Below are positions 3,452 to 22,857 of a stretch of DNA of 22,857 nt, piece by piece; the first letter of the stretch is position 1, and every line of letters starts with the position of its first letter. The stretch is from a virus, in IMG/VR virus record IMGVR_UViG_3300021963_000692, positions 1 to 22,857 of that record. One strand, written 5' to 3'. The translations under genes and the position numbers were made by a program. A model generated the notes under the pieces. The model saw nothing but the letters and a program-made list of their open reading frames with translations, did not search any database and was not told the origin of the DNA.

Positions 3452-6400
3452 TTAATCAACTTCCAAAATTGGTTCACCACTACCTCTACCAGTCTTAGCA
3501 ACTCTAAGAATGTTAGGATTAGTAGTAAATGTTTCTACTGGCGATAATCCATCAGGCGTTGTTAATGGCGTTTGCTGAGACCCCATAAAGTATGAACGTT
3601 TCATACCTTCTGATAAATTACTTACAAATTTATAGTGTGTTGGTAAATATCCATTTAATGTTTGTACTTCTACTACCCCATTTCCTAAAGAAACGCTGCC
3701 ACTCCAAGCCATACTACTAACTTTGTATTTATATTTTACAGTAGGTATTTTAACATATTTAACTCTTTCGCCCGGATATATTAATGAACGAGTTGTTGGA
3801 TATCCAGCTACTTGAGTATTGATTTTTTGTGTATATTGTTCTTTTACAATAAATACACTCTCTCTACTTCCAGTATGGTTTCCAAATACATCATCATAAT
3901 AATAAGTTTTAGAAACACCATGCTTTGCATACAATCCATATCCTCTATTAGCTAATGAATTTTTATCCATTCCAATTTCAGTAAATGTAAAAGAATCTGC
4001 TTCTCCAGATAAACTACTACCAGTAGGTACTTGAATTGCTACCGAATACATTGGTGCACTTGCTTCTAATGTTTGACTAGCTGCAGTTATGCTTGTTTCG
4101 TAATTAGGATTGGATGTTTCAAATGTAGTTTCTTCCAAATCAATAGTACCATTATTGTTACTAACCAATGTGTCAAATGAAGTTACATTTTGAATATCCA
4201 AATGTGCATCTTTTGGTATAGATTCGGAATCAACATATATATCATCTTGTGTATTGATTGATGTTGCAAAATCATTTTTTAAAGATTCTGGTTTATTCCA
4301 ACGAGTCTTGCTTCTTTCTAAATAATGTGGTTCAATCAATAATCCTTTTGATATATTCGTTCTAGCAGGTGCTAATTCTGCCAATACCTCAAATAAAGAT
4401 TTATCAATATATTTAACCAATCTAATATATTCGTAGATATCTCTATTATCCAATCTTTCAAAATAATATCCTCTTAAAATATCCAATTGTCTATATGAAT
4501 CTTTGTATTCATCCGATGGGTCACCAATATAATTATCAATATTAAAATCACCAAATGCTTTTAAGATATCCATATTTAACTCCTTAATTGGAGAAAAGAA
4601 TAATCCTAAACGATTTGAATCAACAGGAGCTCTATCAAATGATTTTTTAGTTGCTCTTTGTTTATATGATAAATCCGTTGTTAATGTTTGCGTTTCAAAA
4701 CGAATCTTATTAGAAACATTAAATCCTAAAGATGGAACATTTGCTGTTACAGTTCTATCATATGGAGTGTATTGATATGGATACGCAGATGCTGAATACA
4801 TATTACTTGCCGATGCAAATGGTTCTCCATAGTTATCACTAATAGCTACATTCTTAATTCCTTTATTTTCAGTTATAGTTCTATCTTTTGGATATTCAAA
4901 ATCCAAACGGAACATTAAATCCTTTGTAGATGAATCATAATCATTACCATTGATTGCATCAGGGAATAAAGTATGATTTTCAAATTTACTTCTTTGTAAA
5001 GGTACAGTCCATAATCTGAACTCATCCACATTACCATCATATCCGTTTCCACCAATTTGTAAATGAGAACCAGTTTCCCATTGAGTATCAACAGTTGCAA
5101 TAGACATACTAACCGAAGTTATTATTCTACTACCATTTGACGTTGCTAACCAAACTTCAAACCAAGATGATGAATCAGGATTGTTATGTCTATTAATTGC
5201 TACGTTTGAATAGTACTCTGTTGAAATTGGAAAATCTAAACTATTTGTTTTCCAATCAGGACCTAAAACGTATTCGATTGATGAAGTTATATATTCGTTA
5301 CCACTTGATGTTACTTCAAAATATGTACTAGTAGATTGGTCACCACCAAAATTTAATTCTATTCTACCAAAAGAACCAGTTGTTTGAACCAAATCTAAAC
5401 TCCATTCGCTTCCAGATATTAAAGAATATTTTGGCGATGGTATTTCTGAAGGTAGTACTCTAAATTCTATTGAATTTGGATAATCTCCAGTAGAACCAAT
5501 AACATGCCAAGGTACTTTTACATTAGAACTTCCGTTATTATTTAAATCTCCCTTTAAGTAAATTGCTGCAGTTCTATCATCAAATGTAAATTTGGAAACA
5601 CCGCCTGCTGTTGGGTCTTGTGGTCCACCAAATTCCATTATTGTCAACATAGATTGAGGTACACCATAGCAAGCCATAATAGCTTTCATAGCTCTAGCAG
5701 TACCTTTATGTTTTAATAAGTAAGGTAAATTATTTAATATTCTTCTCCAAACCTCATCATTTGCATCTGCCAAAGACATTTGGTATTTTTGGAAACCATC
5801 TTTGTATTGCCCAAACGCATATTCCCATAAGAATGGAGAATTAAATGCTTTTTTAGGATTCCAACCAAATGATTGTAACAAGTTTGAAACTAATTTGTTA
5901 CTAAATCCTTTAACCTGCTTATGCTCTAAATTTTTTGTTTTAGATAAATTTGTTATATAAGCCCACACAATATCAAAGTGTTGGCCTATCATATCTAAAA
6001 ATACTAAAAAATCATTATTATTATAATCTTCTCTGATAAATTCAGGTATATTATTTACTAAATAATCCGGATTGTATTTATCATACTCTGCTGCCAAATC
6101 AATTAAAGAGCCATACCAAGCAATTACTTCTGAATGGTTTGTTTGTCTTAATATATAAGTACCCAATCCAGTTATAGGATGTACATACATTTCTTTTGGA
6201 TATGCCAATGCATTAGTAGATTTATATAAGAAACTCTCAAATCCATCTAAACTTCTAATAAGACCATTAATAGTTTCCAACACCCTTTTAGCTTCATCTG
6301 CTCTAGCTACAGTTGTAAATTGAGCACGTTCCCATTGAATTTCAAAAATACCATCTTCAGTAATTGTTTGATATCCATCTTGTGTCAATATACCACCCTC

Positions 6401-8650
6401 TCCTTCCGAATATTCAGCATTATATGTAGTTGTTAATCCTTCATATTTTGCTTTATAATTTTCAAGTAAAGTTACTTTATAAAAGAAATTATTAACTCTT
6501 TCTTCAGCTGAACCGAAGTGTGAAAAATTATCAAACATATAAGTAGAGCCACTAACATATTCAATATTTAATATAGTAGTATCTATACCATTACCTTCCA
6601 AATATTTATTTATTAAATTGGTAGATGTTTGAGAACCACTAGCTATTAAATCATCAAATACCTGATATGCCACTCCATTACTTTCTTCTAATGTAAAATT
6701 AGGTCCTTTTAATGGTGGACAATACGATTCATCAAATCCGTTTATTGTTATAGTTTCTACGATTGGATTTGATTGTACTTTAGAAATCCAAACTTGCTGA
6801 TTTGGTTGTACTGATGTTGGTAATGGTTCGTATAATTTTAAAATTAATGAATTATCACTACCAACCCAAGTTGTTACTACTTTATTATCACCATTACCTA
6901 AGTGTAATAAATGCGTAAGATATTTTGAAGATTCATCATCAAAAATTTTATCATCAAATTGAGATATAAACCCATCGGCTATTCTAGATATTGCCGTATC
7001 TCTTGGTATTGTTATATCACCTTTATCTAATTGTATTGTGATAAATTCTTCCTTACCAATTACAACTTCTTTACCTTGCTCATTATACGGTACTAATTTT
7101 AATACCATACTCACCAAATCCTCACTTTGAGATGTTTGAGTGCCATCTAAACTTAATAATTGTAAAAAGTTTAAACTAACTTCACCACTTGCAGTTGCTT
7201 TAATAAAAGTACTACTACCTACTTTATATATTTTTACATAATCAGTATTAACCGATTCATAACTTATAATAAAATCTACGTTAGCACCAATATAATCAGG
7301 ACCTTTAATTAAAGAAGGGTATTGTATATTTCTAATATCAGGAACACCAACATAAACAGCATCTACAACATTTATTGAAAATTCAATTGGCTCTCCATCA
7401 GTTCCGTTTATACCAAATAGTCTAGCTGTTCCTGCTGATTTTGGTATTAATATAACTTTATAATTTCCAATTTTTGTGAATACCTTTGCTGGTATTAATA
7501 TTACAGCTCTATCACTATCACCTAAGTTATCAAAATTATAAATAATATTATTAATTCTTAATTCAATCGATGTTGTATTTGTATTTTTTAATATGCCAAT
7601 TGGAACATCTGCTTTTGAATTTATATTATATTCTCTCTTTTCATTATCAATTAATGATATTATTGGAGTGTTTACATTAACTGTTTCAAATGCTTCCGTA
7701 GATACAGATGCGCCAAATTTAGAACCATCTAATGTTAATTTTGTAGAAATACTTTCGGTATCGGATGCTGCTGATAATGTCTTTGTTTCAAATGCTTCTG
7801 ATTGGATTTGTATAGTTGTTATTCTATACGAATTGATATTGGCTGTTTGTATTGTAACAAAACTACCAGCTTCAGCTACTATATTATTTATTCCTGATTT
7901 TAAACTAATTCTTTCTGTTATACCATTTCCATCACTTATTATAGCTATCGCAGAATCATCATTTCCATCTAAAGATATAGTTGTAGATTGAACTACATTT
8001 GTATCTTCGATAGGCGTTACATTATTAGTTTCTAATTTAAAAGAAATATTTTTAATGTTTCCACCATTATTATCATAAGATTGCTCAATATCATTATTAA
8101 AATATTTTATATTAAGTTTATAATATGGAGTATTGGAATATATTGGTTTGTTCGTATCAATAGAAGGAATACTATTAAACATAGCCAATCCACTAACACC
8201 AAAGTTCCCACCCATTCCACCAAATATAGATGATGCCGGGTTTATATTAAAATCTACATTTAAATTATATTCAGAATTTGGTACTAATGTTACTATATAT
8301 TTTTCAGAAGATTTATATCCACTTTTTTCAATAGTGATTACTTTATCACCACCACTTAATATATCCGATAAATTAATGTTTATATTGTTTGGTGTAGTTT
8401 TAAATGTATTTTCACCATTGACTAAAATAGATGCATTTGATATGTTAGATGCAACACTTACTATATATGTATCATTTGATAGAGGTGTTCCTGGCGTATT
8501 GGTTATTACAACAGAACTTCCACCACCAGTTGATACAGAGCCACCACCCCCACCTCCTGTTGCATTCAGTACTTCTTGTGAAATGCCGCCGTTAAAGGAA
8601 TCGTTAGAACCAAATCCGCTATCAAATAATATTTCATCTATTGCTTTCAT
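3452..8650 (-). CDS. Giant baseplate/tail protein with PEGA-like and LamG-like domains, possibly gp7-like
   Basis: The protein has 1732 residues. In order: a Gly-rich N-terminus (G6 near residue 35); a PEGA-like repeat (about 55-135, ILVNGENTFKTTP then ITIEKSGYKSSEKY); a long run of beta-sandwich-like segments; and a central helical region (about 880-1030) ending in LPYLLKHKGTARAMKAIMAC then YGVPQS. That last motif is like the 'hKGT..a....l...yG' signature of P2 gpI-type and other wedge-to-fibre tail proteins. A LamG/concanavalin-type sandwich follows (about 1040-1240, with NVDEFRLWTVPL near 1205), and then a C-terminal region rich in Tyr. In T4, gene 7 (wedge initiator, about 1000 aa) follows gene 6, so a gp7-like role is plausible, but the size and extra domains exceed T4 gp7. 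PEGA and LamG domains commonly bind cell-surface polymers, so a host-contact role is inferred. The start ATG is 12 bases after the previous stop. Confidence 0.75.
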   Translation of the reverse strand: MKAIDEILFDSGFGSNDSFNGGISQEVLNATGGGGGGSVSTGGGSSVVITNTPGTPLSNDTYIVSVASNISNASILVNGENTFKTTPNNININLSDILSGGDKVITIEKSGYKSSEKYIVTLVPNSEYNLNVDFNINPASSIFGGMGGNFGVSGLAMFNSIPSIDTNKPIYSNTPYYKLNIKYFNNDIEQSYDNNGGNIKNISFKLETNNVTPIEDTNVVQSTTISLDGNDDSAIAIISDGNGITERISLKSGINNIVAEAGSFVTIQTANINSYRITTIQIQSEAFETKTLSAASDTESISTKLTLDGSKFGASVSTEAFETVNVNTPIISLIDNEKREYNINSKADVPIGILKNTNTTSIELRINNIIYNFDNLGDSDRAVILIPAKVFTKIGNYKVILIPKSAGTARLFGINGTDGEPIEFSINVVDAVYVGVPDIRNIQYPSLIKGPDYIGANVDFIISYESVNTDYVKIYKVGSSTFIKATASGEVSLNFLQLLSLDGTQTSQSEDLVSMVLKLVPYNEQGKEVVIGKEEFITIQLDKGDITIPRDTAISRIADGFISQFDDKIFDDESSKYLTHLLHLGNGDNKVVTTWVGSDNSLILKLYEPLPTSVQPNQQVWISKVQSNPIVETITINGFDESYCPPLKGPNFTLEESNGVAYQVFDDLIASGSQTSTNLINKYLEGNGIDTTILNIEYVSGSTYMFDNFSHFGSAEERVNNFFYKVTLLENYKAKYEGLTTTYNAEYSEGEGGILTQDGYQTITEDGIFEIQWERAQFTTVARADEAKRVLETINGLIRSLDGFESFLYKSTNALAYPKEMYVHPITGLGTYILRQTNHSEVIAWYGSLIDLAAEYDKYNPDYLVNNIPEFIREDYNNNDFLVFLDMIGQHFDIVWAYITNLSKTKNLEHKQVKGFSNKLVSNLLQSFGWNPKKAFNSPFLWEYAFGQYKDGFQKYQMSLADANDEVWRRILNNLPYLLKHKGTARAMKAIMACYGVPQSMLTIMEFGGPQDPTAGGVSKFTFDDRTAAIYLKGDLNNNGSSNVKVPWHVIGSTGDYPNSIEFRVLPSEIPSPKYSLISGSEWSLDLVQTTGSFGRIELNFGGDQSTSTYFEVTSSGNEYITSSIEYVLGPDWKTNSLDFPISTEYYSNVAINRHNNPDSSSWFEVWLATSNGSRIITSVSMSIATVDTQWETGSHLQIGGNGYDGNVDEFRLWTVPLQRSKFENHTLFPDAINGNDYDSSTKDLMFRLDFEYPKDRTITENKGIKNVAISDNYGEPFASASNMYSASAYPYQYTPYDRTVTANVPSLGFNVSNKIRFETQTLTTDLSYKQRATKKSFDRAPVDSNRLGLFFSPIKELNMDILKAFGDFNIDNYIGDPSDEYKDSYRQLDILRGYYFERLDNRDIYEYIRLVKYIDKSLFEVLAELAPARTNISKGLLIEPHYLERSKTRWNKPESLKNDFATSINTQDDIYVDSESIPKDAHLDIQNVTSFDTLVSNNNGTIDLEETTFETSNPNYETSITAASQTLEASAPMYSVAIQVPTGSSLSGEADSFTFTEIGMDKNSLANRGYGLYAKHGVSKTYYYDDVFGNHTGSRESVFIVKEQYTQKINTQVAGYPTTRSLIYPGERVKYVKIPTVKYKYKVSSMAWSGSVSLGNGVVEVQTLNGYLPTHYKFVSNLSEGMKRSYFMGSQQTPLTTPDGLSPVETFTTNPNILRVAKTGRGSGEPILEVD

Positions 8651-10992: not shown

Positions 10993-12063
10993 TTAATTTT
11001 TTACAATACTAAATGTTATATCTTCATCAAAATACTGAACGTTTCCGTTCATATTAATTTTAAATTCTATTTTATAAGTTCTACCAGCTTCCCAATTAGA
11101 AAGATTTAAATTTACATAATTACCAGTTTCATCACAGCTAATTTTTGAATAATCAGAAAACGGAATAATAATATCATCAGATGCAACATCTTTAATTTGA
11201 TAATATGATGATGTTGGTAGATAATGCGATGTACTATATGAAAATTGATTAGTAAACGTTTTAATAGGATACAATTCTCTAGCAAATATTCTTATCTTTG
11301 GGTTAGTTCCAAGTTTAACTTCTGTTTTTAAATTAGTAACTCCAACTTTTATATCCTCCGAAGTTAAAGCATTTAATGAACCCGTTACATACAATTGGTC
11401 ATCCCAACCTATTCTAATCTTTGGTTGATATATTGTATTTGTTTCTTTACTAAATACTTTTATAGTACCATAATCTTGTGTATCAATTTCTTTATCAACT
11501 GAATGTCTTAATATAATACCATCGTTTGGAATAGAACCGCTCATCCAACTTCTCAATAAAGATTTAACATCCATATTAATATCAGCTGTTTGGTAATTAA
11601 ATCCCTGCGATGATTGGTATCCAGTCCACCAAGTACCACCAACTCCATTATTTACAGTAGCCGTTGTACCAGGATTAAAGTTATTCTGAAGCCATTCTAG
11701 TTTAGAATCACCTTCTCTATAATTCCACGTTACACCAGTTGTTGATATGTTATCAAAACGAGTACCCTTACCCATTTCCCAAGCACCAGAAACTGCATTA
11801 GCATAAATTGTATATTCTAATGGAAGTTCTTCACTCTTTGTTTCTTTTAAAACAAGAGTTGCTTCGTTCATTTTTAATGTGTTATTAGATAGAGATGCCG
11901 ATAGGTATCCTACTTCAAATTTTAATAAAGCATGAGCTATATCTTTTATGTTACCATAATATAGTTTGCTTATTTCTAATATCTCATCCAAACCTGTATT
12001 TTGGTTTGGTTGTTGTAGATATACCGTTGCATCTTTTGATGCTGTCATAAAATAGTATGCCAT
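10993..12063 (-). CDS. DNRLRE-domain virion protein, 356 aa
   Basis: The N-terminal half matches the DNRLRE (CBM96-like) beta-sandwich pattern. It opens with KDATVYLQQPNQNTG.DEILEI, then LLKFEV, VTWNYREGDSKLEW, and DVKSLLRSWMSG followed by DGIILRHS near residues 165-190, with YQPKIRIGWDD at the end of the domain. In bacteria this domain occurs on secreted surface proteins and is thought to bind polysaccharide or stabilise shape. The C-terminal about 120 residues (LKTEVKLGTNPKIRIFAREL onward) form another beta-rich unit with many Tyr. Its ATG overlaps the gp6-like stop by one base (TAATG). In T4 the positions after gene 6 are wedge genes 7 and 8, so this may be a wedge or outer baseplate protein. 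The domain call is solid; the structural role is inferred. Confidence 0.7.
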   Translation of the reverse strand: MAYYFMTASKDATVYLQQPNQNTGLDEILEISKLYYGNIKDIAHALLKFEVGYLSASLSNNTLKMNEATLVLKETKSEELPLEYTIYANAVSGAWEMGKGTRFDNISTTGVTWNYREGDSKLEWLQNNFNPGTTATVNNGVGGTWWTGYQSSQGFNYQTADINMDVKSLLRSWMSGSIPNDGIILRHSVDKEIDTQDYGTIKVFSKETNTIYQPKIRIGWDDQLYVTGSLNALTSEDIKVGVTNLKTEVKLGTNPKIRIFARELYPIKTFTNQFSYSTSHYLPTSSYYQIKDVASDDIIIPFSDYSKISCDETGNYVNLNLSNWEAGRTYKIEFKINMNGNVQYFDEDITFSIVKN

Positions 12064-14099
12064 TATCTTACTCTACCTTTAATGTCTGCATCAGGAAACT
12101 TAATTTCAAAAACCGATGGGTCTAAAGATGGATAAACTATCTTATCTTTAGTAGCCGCATCTATATTATATGAATTTGGTGAATATTGTCCACCACATTT
12201 ATTTGTTATTTTTAACATTGGTACTGATTGTACACCTTCAATATTTGCTAGTAGTAATTCAACTTCATTTAAATTTATTGTTTGGTTAAATTGCCAATTA
12301 TTAATATCAAAATATTGTTTAAGTTCTATTATCGCCTTAGTAAGTGTTTCATTTTTATTATAATTTGGATAAACTATAATTTCAAATTCCAAACCTATAT
12401 TAATAACAAATCCATCATTTATATTAATACCATCAGTAAGCATTCTATATTCATTAAAATAAGTTTTGATGTTTTCTTTTACCGCTCTATTCAAATTTGT
12501 AATGTGTCCGTTTACATCATAACCTAACAAATATAAGTTAATTGCAAATGGATTATTTTTTTCATTTTCATTTGATGTTTTACCAATTAAAAATTTAGTA
12601 ATTTCACTTTGAACAGTAGCTTGAGTTGGTTCTTCGGAATCTGGTTTATTAACAAAACTCATAACCAAATCCGTAAATTCTTGCAAATGATTTGGAGATG
12701 CTAGTATAGATGATGGTGAATTATTATCCAATGTACCATCTGCAACTGCAAATGCTTTTGCAACAGAACCAAACTTAGTTGGCATTGATAAAGCTCTTAT
12801 TTGATAATCCTTTGCGGTTACTGCTCTATTTTGTGCACCAAAGTTTGCCAATGCATTCTGTCTAATTTCTTCAATTGTTTCTGCACCCCTACCACCAACA
12901 GCAGGTACTTCATTATCAACAGCTAATGAATTTTTTGATGAATTATATATAACTCTTTCAGCTGCGTTAAATAATGCTGTGTTTTCTTCAAATTCCACTG
13001 CGTTTATTTTAGTAAGTTCACCACTTGCAACATTTGAATTAACTCCACCACCTGTATAATATTTTACAGTTATTGTTGTATTGGCTGGTGATGTTCCGTA
13101 TGTTTTTGTTTTTAAGAAATTTGTTGGGTCAAATGATTCTTCTAATCTACTAATAGAGTTTGGTAATCCCAATCCAACGTTTTTAAGATTTGGAATTAAT
13201 TGTTCATCTGATGCAGTTGGGTCACCAGCTCCAAATTGAATAGTTGTTGTACTATCTTCATTTATTTTAACAGTAAATCTCTTTGGAGTTTTTATTGTTT
13301 TTAAAATATATGGAACTGTTGATTTAAACTGATATAAATCTGGGTCATTTGATTCGGTGTTTGGATAATCTAAAAATACCATTTCTTGTGCTAAGTATGG
13401 TACTTCATAGTATTTGTTACCATTACTATCTCTAACATCATATATCTCAATAACATTCGTTTCATCCAAATTTATAATTTGAAATGATTCATAATTACCA
13501 AAATCAATTTCTTTTAATTGTCTTTCTGCTGATATTACTTGAACATATTTTTTTATTAAATAGAATGTAGCTTCTCCAGTATTTATATCCCTTTCGTATA
13601 TTACAATCTCTCTATCCGATTCGTTTGAAAAATCAACAACATCTCTTGTTATAAATTGAACATCATTTTTAGTTGAACTAATAATCATACCTTCTTTAAT
13701 ACGAAGATAAAATCTTTCATCTGGTTCATTATTTACACCAGTTCCAATTGATGGAACTAATTGATAAACAGATAATGTTGATATTGCCGGAGATGTTACT
13801 TTTGGTTTATATCCTAAAAATTGAGATAATGCTATTACACTTTGAATATCTTCAGCGTATGGCATTAATGATTCTTTTAAAGTATCATCAGTATAGTAAG
13901 ATAATACATCACCTATATAAGATGCCATTTCTATGAACATCATACCAGGAGATGATTCGTTAAAATCAGAATATGTTTTTGGGAAATACGTTTTGCTAAA
14001 TTCAATTAGATTTTCTCTAAAGCTTGCAAAATCTTTATTAAGGTATTTTATATCCTTACCCTTATTCTTAAAGTTTTTATTTATTGTGTTTATAGCCAT
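12063..14099 (-). CDS. Baseplate wedge protein, gp6-like (BaseplateJ family)
   Basis: The protein has 678 residues, close to the 660 of T4 gp6. The N-terminus carries the family signature: KYLNKDFASFRENLIEFSK with TYFP, then ESSPGMMFIEMASYIGDVLS followed by YYTDD (about residues 18-72), then FLGYKP. A second hallmark near residues 402-435 reads GRGAETIEEIRQNAL, then NRAVTAKDYQ, typical of the Baseplate_J fold. In T4, gp6 dimers form the inner ring of the baseplate and lock the wedges together around the hub. The gp25-like gene is immediately upstream, three bases away, and the downstream gene overlaps by one base (TAATG), matching the wedge clustering seen in other contractile phages. No frameshift or missing segment is visible. 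This is the strongest T4-like anchor in the window. Confidence 0.93.
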   Translation of the reverse strand: MAINTINKNFKNKGKDIKYLNKDFASFRENLIEFSKTYFPKTYSDFNESSPGMMFIEMASYIGDVLSYYTDDTLKESLMPYAEDIQSVIALSQFLGYKPKVTSPAISTLSVYQLVPSIGTGVNNEPDERFYLRIKEGMIISSTKNDVQFITRDVVDFSNESDREIVIYERDINTGEATFYLIKKYVQVISAERQLKEIDFGNYESFQIINLDETNVIEIYDVRDSNGNKYYEVPYLAQEMVFLDYPNTESNDPDLYQFKSTVPYILKTIKTPKRFTVKINEDSTTTIQFGAGDPTASDEQLIPNLKNVGLGLPNSISRLEESFDPTNFLKTKTYGTSPANTTITVKYYTGGGVNSNVASGELTKINAVEFEENTALFNAAERVIYNSSKNSLAVDNEVPAVGGRGAETIEEIRQNALANFGAQNRAVTAKDYQIRALSMPTKFGSVAKAFAVADGTLDNNSPSSILASPNHLQEFTDLVMSFVNKPDSEEPTQATVQSEITKFLIGKTSNENEKNNPFAINLYLLGYDVNGHITNLNRAVKENIKTYFNEYRMLTDGININDGFVINIGLEFEIIVYPNYNKNETLTKAIIELKQYFDINNWQFNQTINLNEVELLLANIEGVQSVPMLKITNKCGGQYSPNSYNIDAATKDKIVYPSLDPSVFEIKFPDADIKGRVR

Positions 14100-14102
14100 T
14101 TT

Positions 14103-14531
14103 TTATACTTGTGCATTAAATGTTACAGTTTCCAAATTTGCCGTATCACCTACTCTAAAAGAAATAGAAACTTCTACGCTATTTGAATTTTTTAATTCGT
14201 TTGACTGATTTACATCAATATTCTCAACAGTTATATATGGTAACCATAAAGCCATAGTATCAACTATTGTATTTTCTATTTTATCAGCAAATTCTTCATC
14301 ATTTATTTCAAATAATAGTTCTTGTAGCCCACTACCAAATTCAGGTTGCATTAACCTTTCATATTTTTTAGTAAGTAACAAATTCTTTATATTAGACTTA
14401 GCTTGGTCTACTGTTTTAAAACTTTGATTAAACGCTGTATTACCTATTTGAATTGGCAAAGTGATACCAATAGCATATTCTTCATATTCTTTTGTATCAA
14501 TCAATATCTTTTTACCAAGTACAATAGCCAT
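14103..14531 (-). CDS. Baseplate wedge protein gp25-like
   Basis: This 142-aa protein has the GPW/gp25 family pattern: YAIGITLPIQIGNTAFNQSF at residues 19-38, the helix AKSNIKNLLLTKKYER, MQPEFGSGLQELLFE at 61-75, and IENTIVDTMALWLPYITVENIDV. In contractile tails gp25 sits at the sheath-baseplate junction and nucleates sheath assembly; despite an old annotation as a lysozyme, it is structural. The 132 residues of T4 gp25 are close in length. The ATG overlaps the preceding gene's TAA by one base (TAATG), and gp6 follows three bases after its own stop. The start is fixed by that overlap and by the family N-terminus. Confidence 0.92.
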   Translation of the reverse strand: MAIVLGKKILIDTKEYEEYAIGITLPIQIGNTAFNQSFKTVDQAKSNIKNLLLTKKYERLMQPEFGSGLQELLFEINDEEFADKIENTIVDTMALWLPYITVENIDVNQSNELKNSNSVEVSISFRVGDTANLETVTFNAQV

Positions 14532-18902: not shown

Positions 18903-19718
18903 TTAAACTGGGATTACTTCAATAGTAATTTTAGGTTGGTATCCTTCAGGTAGTTGTCTATTAATACCTTTGAATTCGTTTACTTTATTCTTAAAGTATG
19001 TTATTTGTAATATACGGTCTGTCAAATTCATTACCGTTTGCGAAGAAGTAGACATTTCTTCAGTGTCTCTTTTCATATTCAATTGAGGTTTTGTTGGGAA
19101 GTATTCCTTTCTCATAGCTTGTGCTATTTGTTTCCAATCTTCCACTTTATCAACTGACTTCTCAGCTGATATCTTTCTCATTTTTGAACTTAGATATTTC
19201 TCACCATTTGTGTATCCAGCATCGGTGAACATGTGTCCGTGGTTTGTACGAACAACAGGCGATTCGGAGTTTTGAAGTTTAACATCAGGCTTATGCTTTG
19301 ATGTAGTTTCGATACTAACCATGTGTTTTGGTGATGATACAAATGTATGACCTTTCAAAGATAATCCACTCTTACCCTTATATGATAGTGCAGCTCGTAC
19401 CGCATCCATTAGGGTAGGTTGTTTGATGATGTTTCTCATCTTATCTCCATCAGGTCCTGGCTTTCCACCTTTCTTTACAATCTTATGTTCCGCTTCATCA
19501 TGTCCAACTAATAGTGCAGAGTTTACTACACCAATTCCGTTCTCATTTAATCCTTCACTCCAATCAGTTATTAAATCATGCAGATATGCAACTTCTACAC
19601 CATCGATGATAGTGTGTACAATTTCTAAAGATGGGTTATAAGCTCTATCTCTATTTTTAGCTAGGATAAATTTATCTTTAATTTCCTTAGATACAATGAT
19701 GCACTCTGAAAGTTTCAT
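18903..19718 (-). CDS. Ntn-hydrolase (choloylglycine hydrolase / C45 / NRDE-like superfamily)
   Basis: This 271-aa protein shows the core motifs of N-terminal-nucleophile hydrolases of the choloylglycine/C45/NRDE type: Cys6 followed after 15 residues by KNRDRAY (compare GRNMD in bile-salt hydrolase and NRDE in TANGO2-like proteins), DWSEGLNENGIGVVNSAL with Asn58, VVRTNHGHMF with Asn159, and STSSQTVMNLTDRILQITYF near 223-242. These enzymes hydrolyse amide bonds of small molecules after the residues before the Cys are removed, which leaves it as the N-terminal nucleophile. Here the leader is MKLSE, five residues, and it matches the (L/I)xE cleavage consensus of T4-type prohead proteases. The substrate is unknown: a host acyl-amide, signal, lipid or peptide bond is possible. 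It is the last gene of the 21787-18903 unit, and its ATG abuts the preceding TAA (TAAATG). Confidence 0.82.
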   Translation of the reverse strand: MKLSECIIVSKEIKDKFILAKNRDRAYNPSLEIVHTIIDGVEVAYLHDLITDWSEGLNENGIGVVNSALLVGHDEAEHKIVKKGGKPGPDGDKMRNIIKQPTLMDAVRAALSYKGKSGLSLKGHTFVSSPKHMVSIETTSKHKPDVKLQNSESPVVRTNHGHMFTDAGYTNGEKYLSSKMRKISAEKSVDKVEDWKQIAQAMRKEYFPTKPQLNMKRDTEEMSTSSQTVMNLTDRILQITYFKNKVNEFKGINRQLPEGYQPKITIEVIPV

Positions 19719-20360
19719 TTAGTTGATATAGCAATTAAGTTCATATTCGTTTTGCCCACCATGTAAACTTCTTGTTTTAGAACCATCTGAATTTCTCTTA
19801 TAAGTTCCCATACCATAAACTTGGATATGTAACATTTTCTTTTGAGGTTTACCATTTTTAGTTAATTCAACAGAGAATCTATTTGTTTTACCGTCCGATG
19901 GTTTTCTAGGGCCCATGCCAATTTTTCTAAATGCATCTTCATCATCAACTTCATATCCTTTCTTTTCTGCATATTCTTTAGCAGTATTGATAGCTGTTGT
20001 ATATGTTTTATGATAAACCATATACTCAGATTTTGCTTCGGTTATGGATTCATTAACTCCTTCAAATAATCTAACAGAAAGAATTACATCTTTACCTATA
20101 TTTAAATTTCTTACTTTATGTCTTTCCAAATCATAAGATGGGTTACCAATTGTATTTGCTTTAGCAACTACACCATTCTTAATAAAGTGTGGTTGTAATC
20201 CAGAGTAGTTATCATCTCTAAATATGAAAACATTATTAGGTAATTCTTTAGATATTTTAATTATCTTCTTTAAACCTTCTTTACCCATAAAGCAACCACC
20301 CTTACAAGCAGTTCCTCCGTAAGTTTGTCCTTTTATAAATGCTTCTTTTAAACTTATCAT
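19719..20360 (-). CDS. 213-aa two-part protein of unknown function with (L/I)xE motifs
   Basis: I do not recognise a named family. Residues 1-6 read MISLKE, followed by a Cys/Gly-rich patch (GTACKGGCFMG, two Cys four apart). A first module (to about 104) has IIKISKELPNNVFIFRDDN and ILSVRLFEG. A second module (about 109-213) runs from YMVYHKTYTTAINTAKEYA to NRFSVELTKNGKPQKKMLHI and ends in QNEYELNCYIN; similar endings occur in unnamed proteins of T4-like phages. LKE|A at residues 4-7 and ITE|A at 106-109, the latter right between the modules, fit the T4 prohead-protease consensus (L/I)xE. The ATG is one base after the previous TAA (TAATATG), and the stop abuts the Ntn-hydrolase start. Virion or internal protein status is inferred. 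Confidence 0.6.
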   Translation of the reverse strand: MISLKEAFIKGQTYGGTACKGGCFMGKEGLKKIIKISKELPNNVFIFRDDNYSGLQPHFIKNGVVAKANTIGNPSYDLERHKVRNLNIGKDVILSVRLFEGVNESITEAKSEYMVYHKTYTTAINTAKEYAEKKGYEVDDEDAFRKIGMGPRKPSDGKTNRFSVELTKNGKPQKKMLHIQVYGMGTYKRNSDGSKTRSLHGGQNEYELNCYIN

Positions 20361-20361
20361 A

Positions 20362-20631
20362 TTAAAATGCTATTGAAATGTAATCACCATCAGCTTCAAT
20401 CCAACGAACTTTTAAAGATAATAATTTTTTCAAATCATCAGCTTCGAATCTATAATTACCATGCCCACCACTTACTTTTATATCTACAATGAACCCATGT
20501 ATTCCATCAAATATAGAATCTACTTTACCACCAATTAATTTTTCAAAAGCCATTACTTGCTTTTGTTGAGTTGGCTGTAAATCTTTTAATTGTACTTCCG
20601 ATGCTTCGTTTAGTTGCGATAATTTTATCAT
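20362..20631 (-). CDS. 89-aa protein of unknown function
   Basis: I do not recognise a family. The N-terminus MIKLSQLNEAS resembles the short leader peptides of its neighbours and contains LNE|A, a fit to the T4-type prohead-protease consensus. The rest is a compact alpha/beta pattern: helix QKQVMAFEKLIGGK, strands GFIVDIKVSGGHGNYRFE, helix ADDLKKLLSL, and strand YISIAF at the end. There is no signal peptide or Cys motif. The ATG abuts the TAA of the membrane-protein gene (TAAATG), and the downstream ATG lies one base after its TAA, so it is embedded in a coupled operon. Confidence 0.6.
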   Translation of the reverse strand: MIKLSQLNEASEVQLKDLQPTQQKQVMAFEKLIGGKVDSIFDGIHGFIVDIKVSGGHGNYRFEADDLKKLLSLKVRWIEADGDYISIAF

Positions 20632-21279
20632 TTATTTTTTTAATTTAATTTTCCAATAAACACCACCTCTAACATATGGAGTAAATCCACCATTTGTACC
20701 ATCAGTTGTTTGATTATTAACACCTAATCCTAATTGGTATATCTTATCTTTCTTAGTATTGATTAGAACACCAGCTCCTACTGAACTTACAAAATCTGCT
20801 TTATTAAATCCACCTTCTAAACCATAGAATACTTTAGTCTTAGGTAATTCCTTTACGATTGTAGTTTCTTTGATAGTTCTTTGTTTAACGTTTGCATTAA
20901 AAGTTCTACCTAAGATTTTGTTTTGTGAAATAGTATCAGTTACAGCCACAGTTCCTAATGAATCAGGCAATACTAGCACATCCTTATATAATACCTTTGA
21001 ATAGTAATCTTTTAATAGAGCCATAGTATCAATAACAGCTGGAATGATTACTTCTTTCTCCACAATTGTTTCATGGTAGATATCTTCACCCTTTTTAGTT
21101 ACTACTTTAGTCTTTACGATATCAACCGTATCGATTTCGTGCTTAATTACTTCATATGCTTTACCAGCTATGAATACTTTCTTACCTGGCATAACTCCAC
21201 CTGGGTTAAACCACTCCAATAAAACGAATATAATCAATACTGCGATTACTATATTCTTAAAGTTCAACAAATTTTTCAT
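20632..21279 (-). CDS. Single-pass membrane protein with C-terminal beta-hairpin domain
   Basis: The 215 aa start with a short basic N-terminus (MKNLLNFK), then one hydrophobic helix (about residues 9-25, NIVIAVLIIFVLLEWF). A periplasm-type region rich in Val/Thr/Lys strands follows (VDIVKTKVVTKKGEDIYHET, VEKEVIIPAVIDT). The C-terminus has alternating strands typical of small beta-barrel or OM-like domains (FYGLEGGFNK, SSVGAGVLIN, YQLGLGVNNQT, TPYVRGGVYWKIKLKK). No lipobox is present, so a classical o-spanin or u-spanin is not supported, but an inner-membrane anchor reaching toward the outer membrane fits the layout. A role in lysis, host-envelope change or DNA entry is possible and unproven. 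It is preceded by a 12-base gap after a candidate small ORF. Confidence 0.65.
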   Translation of the reverse strand: MKNLLNFKNIVIAVLIIFVLLEWFNPGGVMPGKKVFIAGKAYEVIKHEIDTVDIVKTKVVTKKGEDIYHETIVEKEVIIPAVIDTMALLKDYYSKVLYKDVLVLPDSLGTVAVTDTISQNKILGRTFNANVKQRTIKETTIVKELPKTKVFYGLEGGFNKADFVSSVGAGVLINTKKDKIYQLGLGVNNQTTDGTNGGFTPYVRGGVYWKIKLKK

Positions 21280-21291
21280 AATGTATTTTTT

Positions 21292-21411
21292 TTAATTTAT
21301 TTCGTGATTATCATCGTTACTCAAATACTTAAATTGCTTTTGCATACCATTCCAATAATTATCATCATCAGGATTTTCATGTTTATTAAAAATGTTTATT
21401 TTATTTAACAA
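21292..21411 (-). CDS. Possible small ORF, non-ATG start, in the gap after the 117-aa gene
   Basis: The 154-base gap between the 117-aa stop and the membrane-protein start contains an open frame that ends at TAA 21292-21294 and stays open back to 21456. Read from a TTG at 21409-21411 it gives 39 residues, LLNKINIFNKHENPDDDNYW then NGMQKQFKYLSNDDNHEIN, with a normal hydrophilic composition. An internal ATG would give only 17 residues. The frame is +1 relative to the 117-aa gene, so it could also be a shifted C-terminal extension or a decayed gene. An AGGA lies nine bases before the TTG, but other genes here do not use Shine-Dalgarno sequences. Low confidence. Confidence 0.25.
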   Translation of the reverse strand: MLNKINIFNKHENPDDDNYWNGMQKQFKYLSNDDNHEIN

Positions 21412-21433
21412 TCCTTTTAATCCTTTTTCATCT

Positions 21434-21787
21434 TTACTTTTTTTGATAGTCCGCTTTTAATTTATCATATTCTTTCTTTCTATCTTTGTAAAATTTATCC
21501 ATATCATTCTCATATCCTTTAAGTCCATTTTGAGTAGCCAATACCATTGCCGCTTTTCTAGCAGGATGTGTGATTGGATATCCCATAGCTGTTTTTACAG
21601 ATATTTCATTTCCAGTTTCAGAATTTTTTACTTTTAATTTTTCAAATTTATCTCTTAATTCTTTATTCTTTTTTACCAATTCAAGTCTTTTTGCTCTTGC
21701 AGCTGGGGTTTCTCTACGATGAGTCCCACCCAATACTGCAGCAAATATGAATTCGTTTAATAAAGATTTTAATTTAATATCTGCCAT
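21434..21787 (-). CDS. 117-aa basic helical protein of unknown function with leader-like N-terminus
   Basis: I do not recognise a named family. The start MADIKLKSLLNEF contains LNE|F, fitting the (L/I)xE cleavage pattern of T4-type prohead proteases, followed by a short hydrophobic FIFAAVLGG. The rest is a strongly basic helix-rich chain (TPAARAKRLELVKKNKELRD, NDMDKFYKDRKKEYDKLKAD) with a central GYPITHPARKAAMV. High positive charge and small size are what T4 internal head proteins look like, so a DNA-binding, packaged protein is one reading; the virion-assembly reading is equally open. It is the first gene after the ATATTTATA element at 21804-21812. Confidence 0.55.
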   Translation of the reverse strand: MADIKLKSLLNEFIFAAVLGGTHRRETPAARAKRLELVKKNKELRDKFEKLKVKNSETGNEISVKTAMGYPITHPARKAAMVLATQNGLKGYENDMDKFYKDRKKEYDKLKADYQKK

Positions 21788-21821: not shown

Positions 21822-22857
21822 CTAAAATATCATTTTTGACCCGATTTGGATATTATTTAATAAAGAAAAACTATCCCCAAAGGACATTGCTGCTTTATAA
21901 GATGCTGAAAATCCGAATCTTTTGCTTAATTTGTAATCATATCCCAATCCTACCATTGCTCCCGGTGTTCTACTTACAGTACTTCCACCAGTCACAGTAT
22001 TCCAAGCTAATGGGGATTGCATTACGAATACTTGCGGAGTTAGAGTTACTTTTCTACTATAAGGAAATGGTTTCATCCAAAATCCTACCAATGATGAACT
22101 TAAACTAACATCATATCCACCAGTAACTGCGTTTTGCATCATTAAAGTAATCACACCTACATTGTATCCAAATGTTCCGTATTTAGGATGTGGTTTAATC
22201 CAAGTATATCCGTTAAGGTTCATTATAGTTCCTTTAAGATATGCAAATGTAGTTCCGTATGAATGTATTGCGTTTAATTGTCCGTTCTCAAAATTCATCT
22301 TTGTAATACCACCACTTAATGCGAATTGATTTAAGGTACTCCATATAAGTGCGGTAGCTGAATATGATTTATCTCCCATCATTGAAGATTTAGAAACACC
22401 AACACTCATCATTACTGCATATCTACCTTCCGCATCTTCCGTACCAGCCAAATCAGATGCTAACATCATTGGATTAGCTGCTACTTTCTTTTTTTCTTCT
22501 TTTTTCTTTTCTTCCTTCTTCTCCTCTTTCTTTTCTTCTTTAGATTCTTCCTTCTTCTCCTCTTTTTTCTCCTCTGACTTTGATTCCTCTTTCTTTTCTT
22601 CTTTGCTTTCCGATTTTGTTTCTTCTTTCTTTTCTTCAGTCTTACTTTCCGATTTACTCTCCGATTTTGATTCAGATTTGGTTTCAGTTTTAGTCTCCGT
22701 TTTGGTTTCAGTCTTTGTTTCCGTAGATGAAGATGAACCACTACCAGAACTGCTCCCAGAACCTCCAGAACTACTGCTTCCTGATGAGGAAGTCGGTGGT
22801 GGGGTAGAACTACTACTTGATGGTGGTGGAGGGGCTGATGCGGTTGGTGGAGGTGGT
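21822..22857 (-). CDS. Repeat-stalk plus beta-barrel protein, 5' end beyond the window
   Basis: The frame is open from the window edge to the stop at 21822, giving 344 visible residues; an internal Met at 22467-22469 is not the real start. Order: Pro/Ser runs (PPPP, SSSSS), a Ser/Gly stretch, four TETK then three SESK tetrapeptides, a long KKEE-type Lys/Glu-rich segment, a VAANP junction, and then about 215 residues of alternating strands. Those strands (YAVMMSVGVSKSS, FGYNVGVITLMMQ, LTPQVFVMQSPLAW, MVGLGYDYKLSKRFGFSASY) end in GSKMIF. Alternating hydrophobicity with a terminal Phe is the hallmark of outer-membrane beta-barrels. A phage gene with an OM-barrel-like domain on a charged stalk could act at the host envelope or be a virion protein that inserts in membrane. 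No signal peptide can be judged because the N-terminus is absent. Confidence 0.75.
   Translation of the reverse strand, partial: PPPPTASAPPPPSSSSSTPPPTSSSGSSSSGGSGSSSGSGSSSSTETKTETKTETKTETKSESKSESKSESKTEEKKEETKSESKEEKKEESKSEEKKEEKKEESKEEKKEEKKEEKKKEEKKKVAANPMMLASDLAGTEDAEGRYAVMMSVGVSKSSMMGDKSYSATALIWSTLNQFALSGGITKMNFENGQLNAIHSYGTTFAYLKGTIMNLNGYTWIKPHPKYGTFGYNVGVITLMMQNAVTGGYDVSLSSSLVGFWMKPFPYSRKVTLTPQVFVMQSPLAWNTVTGGSTVSRTPGAMVGLGYDYKLSKRFGFSASYKAAMSFGDSFSLLNNIQIGSKMIF
22641..22724 (-). repeat. In-frame 12-bp repeat encoding TETK and SESK units
   Basis: Seven consecutive tetrapeptides are encoded in the beta-barrel gene, four TETK followed by three SESK. Codons vary between units at third positions (for example ACT/ACC/ACG/ACA for Thr), so selection appears to hold the peptide pattern rather than an exact DNA repeat. 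The region downstream (22485-22640) continues as irregular KKEE/ESK units. The peptide is likely an extended charged linker or stalk. Confidence 0.8.

Follow-up and report, generated by a model that had tools for sequence, protein, structure and literature searches.

A variable cassette of probable internal head proteins with a putative protease-activated zymogen in a T4-like myovirus fragment

Internal proteins are the means by which T4-like phages deliver ready-made proteins at infection. Outside T4 they are hard to recognize because their bodies share no sequence. In T4, the prohead protease gp21 cuts after L/I-x-E, and within the IPIII leader MKTYQEFIAE residues 4 and 7 serve targeting and residues 8 and 10 serve processing (PMC9026906). 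The shortest propeptide of a T4 virion protein, that of Alt, has 7 residues according to the same review (PMC9026906). Together, a leader register and an [LIV]xE rule would allow such cargo to be listed from sequence alone across large uncultured phage groups.

The window analyzed here is the whole 22,857-base stretch of a virus fragment (IMGVR_UViG_3300021963_000692) and represents a piece of the genome of a T4-like myovirus, a virus of bacteria. Its minus strand encodes a gp6-like (12063-14099) and a gp25-like (14103-14531) T4-type baseplate wedge protein as well as two cell-wall hydrolases. By the gp6-like protein, the closest named relatives are Microcystis phage Mel-JY01 and Flavobacterium immuto phages, and the near relatives are uncultured IMG/VR contigs. 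PHROGs and Pfam searches with the window's small proteins returned no significant match, and a search of the window for an S77 protease, uninformative in a fragment, found none. The cassette of interest adjoins endolysin and baseplate genes and a membrane protein gene. A 215-aa protein (20632-21279, minus strand), encoded inside the gene run, has an N-terminal membrane segment and no leader, and is possibly a spanin-like envelope protein; in relatives its gene is conserved upstream of the cassette and marks the boundary of the variable part, the gene set changing between it and the hydrolase gene. Judged from gene spacing, the small leader genes and the Ntn-hydrolase gene plausibly form one transcription unit. 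We also noticed a frame at 21822-22856 with a long S/T/E/K/P low-complexity stretch that runs off the window end.

The original prediction held that three small proteins of 117, 89 and 213 aa begin with leaders ending in LNE|F, LNE|A and LKE|A, and that the last of them has a further site, ITE108|A, between its two modules. All of these features were confirmed, all on the minus strand, and a fourth leader-bearing member beyond that list was recognized in the adjoining 271-aa Ntn-hydrolase, which starts MKLSE|C. The 117-aa basic protein (pI 9.9; 21434-21787), a putative internal protein, starts with MADIKLKSLLNE followed by F13; its leader (residues 1-12, 21752-21787) ends in LNE and places hydrophobic residues at E-6, E-3 and E-2, which is the T4-type register. 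The single homologue found (78%, in L412) starts with MAHIKLRDLLNE followed by F, and its gene immediately precedes that of the S77 prohead protease in a head-gene cluster, within a run from portal to scaffold in which two further MIKLK-leader genes stand behind the protease. The 89-aa protein (20362-20631) has the leader MIKLSQLNE (residues 1-9, 20605-20631) followed by A10, nine residues long and without the T4 register. Its homologues retain LNE|A or INE|A, occur also as internal modules (ESINE|ASEV, NLIKE|ASEI), and lie near head genes in two contigs (L020 and L243). The 213-aa basic protein (pI 9.4; 19719-20360) carries the leader MISLKE (residues 1-6, 20343-20360) followed by A, an N module (7-108) and a C module (109-213).

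We compared these leaders with the T4 targeting register (10-19 residues; 7 for Alt). The leader of the 117-aa protein and most leaders of the relatives fit, whereas the leader of the 213-aa protein, with 6 residues, and that of the Ntn-hydrolase, with 5, are too short. Because these two are shorter than T4 propeptides, a cleavage site is better supported for them than a targeting role, and it is doubtful that they serve as targeting signals; a leader of only 4-6 residues may undergo cleavage and yet play no part in targeting. A membrane or secretion signal was considered and set aside, as the leaders are short and have no hydrophobic core.

Comparison with relatives indicates that the leader is portable. 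In their cassettes, MIKLKDLLNE, MISLKKILSE, MIKLKDILKE and similar leaders are followed by unrelated bodies. Enrichment of the motif at N-termini over a shuffled control, proposed earlier as a check, was found: a strict leader pattern picks out 74 distinct proteins, whose bodies fall into at least 24 unrelated kinds, where shuffled N-termini give 0.69, the counts being of related sequences and not of independent events. A pattern-free scan of 1034 protein families gave a concordant picture, with glutamate at residue 10 combined with hydrophobics at 4, 7 and 8 in 29 families, compared with 2-18 families for glutamate at other positions. This peak at residue 10 is the register of the T4 IPII/IPIII leader (MKTYQEFIAE), and leaders of the MIKLKDLLNE type equal the IPIII targeting sequence in length and spacing. 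In another lineage (L397, L399), about ten proteins with unrelated bodies share a different leader, MKLSELRQLIRE or a near variant of it, which suggests that leader types are particular to each phage lineage. The head-gene cluster of L200 encodes, at 5026-7374, a very large protein with homologues in G005, G008 and G001 (about 780-1490 aa); it contains a nucleotidyltransferase-like GRFQPFHKGHYATY motif and further INE joints, and its family, too, has such leaders at the N-terminus (MNRLAQFLIE|S, MNELSQFLVE|S).

By sequence comparison, the 213-aa protein is a fusion of modules with an [LIV]xE site at their joint (ITE108|A109, 20037-20045). Its N module stands alone in two relatives (L051, L066) as MKSLKE|AFVKG, its C module alone in another (L112) as MIKLKDLITE|AKSDYQ, and in other relatives both are joined to further modules. 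Across such fusions, [LIVM]xE lies no more than 3 residues from internal module boundaries in 81 of 98 contexts (12.8% background). In 66 of 121 it coincides with the boundary itself (1.9% background), with Ala most often next, these junctions again being related sequences and their p value not to be taken literally. The structural model of the 213-aa protein shows two domains and a disordered linker (101-111) that contains the ITE108|A site; a fold search with this model, whose pLDDT is only 72, gave no match below E 0.001.

Larger related contigs place these proteins in the company of a head-maturation apparatus. The suggestion that a gp21-like protease should exist in such genomes was substantiated, as Pfam Peptidase_S77 is present in 8/17 and 10/16 larger related contigs. 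The four records of named phages that were searched all have it too: T4 (positive control), immuto, Melnitz and, weakly, MA9V-1. The weak MA9V-1 match (OR050627.1, 126606-126944) lies inside a 1349-aa open frame, which suggests that the protease of this phage is fused or embedded. In the relatives, the order of portal, core proteins, protease, scaffold and capsid resembles that of T4, and the capsid protein matches T4 gp23 (E 4e-30). All five distinct capsid copies carry LLDE|A near the expected propeptide cut, where the T4 counterpart reads FLTE|A. The N-terminus of the protease in the relatives reads MKGLLIE or MRNLLIE, resembling LIE-9 of T4 gp21. Cassette genes are also found among the head genes: in L020 the stretch from protease to scaffold contains modules of the 89-aa and 213-aa proteins, and in L411 the Ntn-hydrolase gene lies between the protease gene and the scaffold and capsid genes.

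Ntn-hydrolases need a free N-terminal cysteine, and C45 enzymes usually mature by autoproteolysis. The 271-aa Ntn-hydrolase (C45/AAT type; 18903-19718, minus strand) is encoded as a precursor, MKLSE|C, with Cys6 as the predicted catalytic residue, the propeptide MKLSE (residues 1-5, 19704-19718) being delimited by homologue comparison and by the model. Among 118 distinct homologues, the cysteine follows the initiator Met in 6 and a leader ending in [LIV]xE in 112, of which two have non-ATG starts. These leaders take 35 different, otherwise unalignable forms, some only 4 residues long (MINE), in which P1 is always Glu, P3 is Leu, Ile or Val, and P2 is free. A tree built from 117 sequences requires at least two changes between the M|C and [LIV]xE|C states. 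The hydrolase of the isolated Chryseobacterium phage MA9V-1 (43% identity) has the leader MTSANNNEFLNE followed by C, ending FLNE|C, and neighboring proteins in that phage start MSNYINE|A and MKGFFINE|A; the MA9V-1 hydrolase used as a query in viral contigs yielded no confirmed relative, nor were bacterial relatives of the hydrolase confirmed in the genome contigs searched. In three relatives the hydrolase frame is split into pieces (L126 and L021, 2942-3530; L023, 3534-4204), either a real disruption or an assembly error.

Since a sequence search of solved structures with the hydrolase gave no match, its class is read from fold comparison and from the family models of its homologues. The C45 proenzyme model NF040521 matches 29 of 39 homologues (best 3.8e-12) and the AAT model PF03417 matches 7 of 39 (best 5.5e-6); the window's own protein matched neither significantly. 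Its structural model (pLDDT 86) has a predicted four-layer Ntn fold with residues 1-4 disordered. In it Cys6 aligns with Cys1 of penicillin V acylase and Cys2 of bile salt hydrolases (best Z 18.9 overall), as well as with Cys126 of human NAAA and Cys143 of acid ceramidase. Cys6 is thus predicted to occupy the nucleophile position and, by inference, to form the mature N-terminus. A prohead-protease cut after [LIV]xE would activate the hydrolase, because such enzymes need a free N-terminal Cys.

Could the tripeptide simply be a chance match? Bare (L/I)xE is common: 2.9 of the 20 window genes are expected to carry it in the first 12 residues in shuffles, and the 7 observed are a modest excess (P 0.008, a value we do not take literally). 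Among 962 genes of relatives, the excess by position is weak, with about 2.6% per position near the N-terminus and about 2% further in. We therefore dropped the bare-tripeptide statistics as evidence, being too weak. The caution voiced originally, that such matches arise easily by chance, was well founded, in that the bare tripeptide says little within one window. The two proteins named in that caution do not conserve the tripeptide as a site: homologues of the 1732-aa protein lose the glutamate (MKAIDD, MRVVED) or the hydrophobic residue (MVANNE), and the tripeptide of the 315-aa protein lies inside conserved sequence, where an LKD variant also occurs. The leader signal turns strong only when relatives are compared, and these comparisons already contradict chance as an explanation for the cassette proteins: 74 strict leaders stand against 0.69 in shuffles, 66 of 121 exact junctions against a 1.9% background, and [LIV]xE is present in 112 of 112 propeptide-bearing hydrolase homologues. 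We regard chance as having next to no likelihood. It is also very improbable that the leader is a docking or localization peptide of non-virion proteins, for example of a replication or lysis complex, with the glutamate as an uncut part of the motif. The position of the cassette next to endolysin, baseplate and membrane protein genes would suit such a role. Docking, however, leaves the recurrence of the sites at internal module joints unexplained, and the register identical to T4 targeting sequences, the linkage to protease and scaffold genes, and the alternation of M|C and [LIV]xE|C in the hydrolase all argue against it.

For the hydrolase, a more specific alternative is that the enzyme, in the autoproteolytic manner of the C45 family, cleaves off the propeptide itself, and that its [LIV]xE is unrelated to the prohead protease. 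The family assignment, C45 'autoproteolytic', favors this, and the best fold matches include the fungal acyltransferase, NAAA and acid ceramidase in precursor form. Self-cleavage would, however, not be expected to keep P3 and P1 as the exact gp21 consensus over 35 unalignable leaders. The same site, moreover, is present on unrelated neighbor proteins, and the hydrolase gene lies within the head operon in L411. Autoproteolysis by itself is in our estimate unlikely, and it could act together with a prohead-protease cut.

The reading first proposed from the window, a T4-like internal-protein set, is supported by the comparative evidence from the relatives' protease, the portable leader and the capsid site. 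We consider it probable that these genes encode a variable set of internal head proteins together with a zymogen that the prohead protease switches on. On this reading they would belong to a T4-like myovirus cassette of changing content whose products are packaged in the core of the head, and in which an N-terminal leader ending in (L/I/V)xE would direct the longer-leader members into the prohead core. A gp21-type S77 protease would then cut behind the glutamate as the head matures, proteins of two modules, the 213-aa one among them, would be split at the second site in the linker, and the mature cargo would be ejected along with the DNA. The Ntn-hydrolase would be made inactive, its nucleophile Cys6 capped by MKLSE, and the S77 cut would free Cys6 as the N-terminus, such that the enzyme would be active only in the maturing head. 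We thus infer cleavage, packaging and ejection, as well as a role of the hydrolase in the next host. Against this stand the six M|C homologues, which need no cut, even though the protease is present in G001, the source of one of them. With somewhat less assurance, we favor the view that head maturation is an on-switch by which the zymogen is activated and packaged polyproteins are split, so that the cargo would be inactive in the cell that makes it and ready to act in the next host. The hydrolase is a clean test case, as its activity would hinge on one protease cut, and its activation would couple the moment at which the enzyme acts to the assembly of the head.

Several described systems share parts of this arrangement. 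The C45/AAT enzymes (isopenicillin N acyltransferase, NAAA, acid ceramidase) and the choloylglycine hydrolases resemble the phage hydrolase in predicted fold, in nucleophile position and in that the residues before the Cys must be removed, but the phage family has [LIV]xE|C or M|C and shares only about 10-19% identity with them. Among packaged enzymes of this fold class, the literature searched yielded PBCV-1 A284L alone, a virion-packaged chlorovirus protein annotated as a choloylglycine hydrolase (PMC3281028); it belongs to an algal virus and is likened to the phage hydrolase by annotation only. The ejection (E) proteins of the giant phages SPN3US and phiKZ are likewise packaged in the head and trimmed after glutamate by the phage's own protease (PMC10052503), but their propeptides are mostly 111-254 residues long (two of 20 and 24) and their sites are A-x-E; the text searched mentions no activation of an enzyme. 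Nor did the literature searched include a paper naming both a prohead protease and an Ntn-hydrolase.

The closest counterparts are T4 IPI, IPII, IPIII and Alt, which are cut by gp21 and share with the window group the short N-terminal leader ending in (L/I)xE. The MIKLKDLLNE type further shares their 10-residue register with hydrophobics at 4, 7 and 8; unrelated bodies stand behind a common leader in both, and S77 and gp23 occur in the same phage group. The window group differs in that its bodies are unmatched to T4 internal proteins by Pfam or PHROGs, in having many more bodies per group and two- or three-module fusions with joint sites, in that some leaders have only 4-6 residues, and in counting a predicted catalytic precursor among its members. 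On sequence grounds, we would place it as a variant of the T4 internal-protein system, whose testable features are all seen in the 117-aa protein and in part in the others. As far as the searched literature extends, three things are new: a cassette of this breadth, fusions with cleavable joints, and an enzyme that a protease apparently activates.
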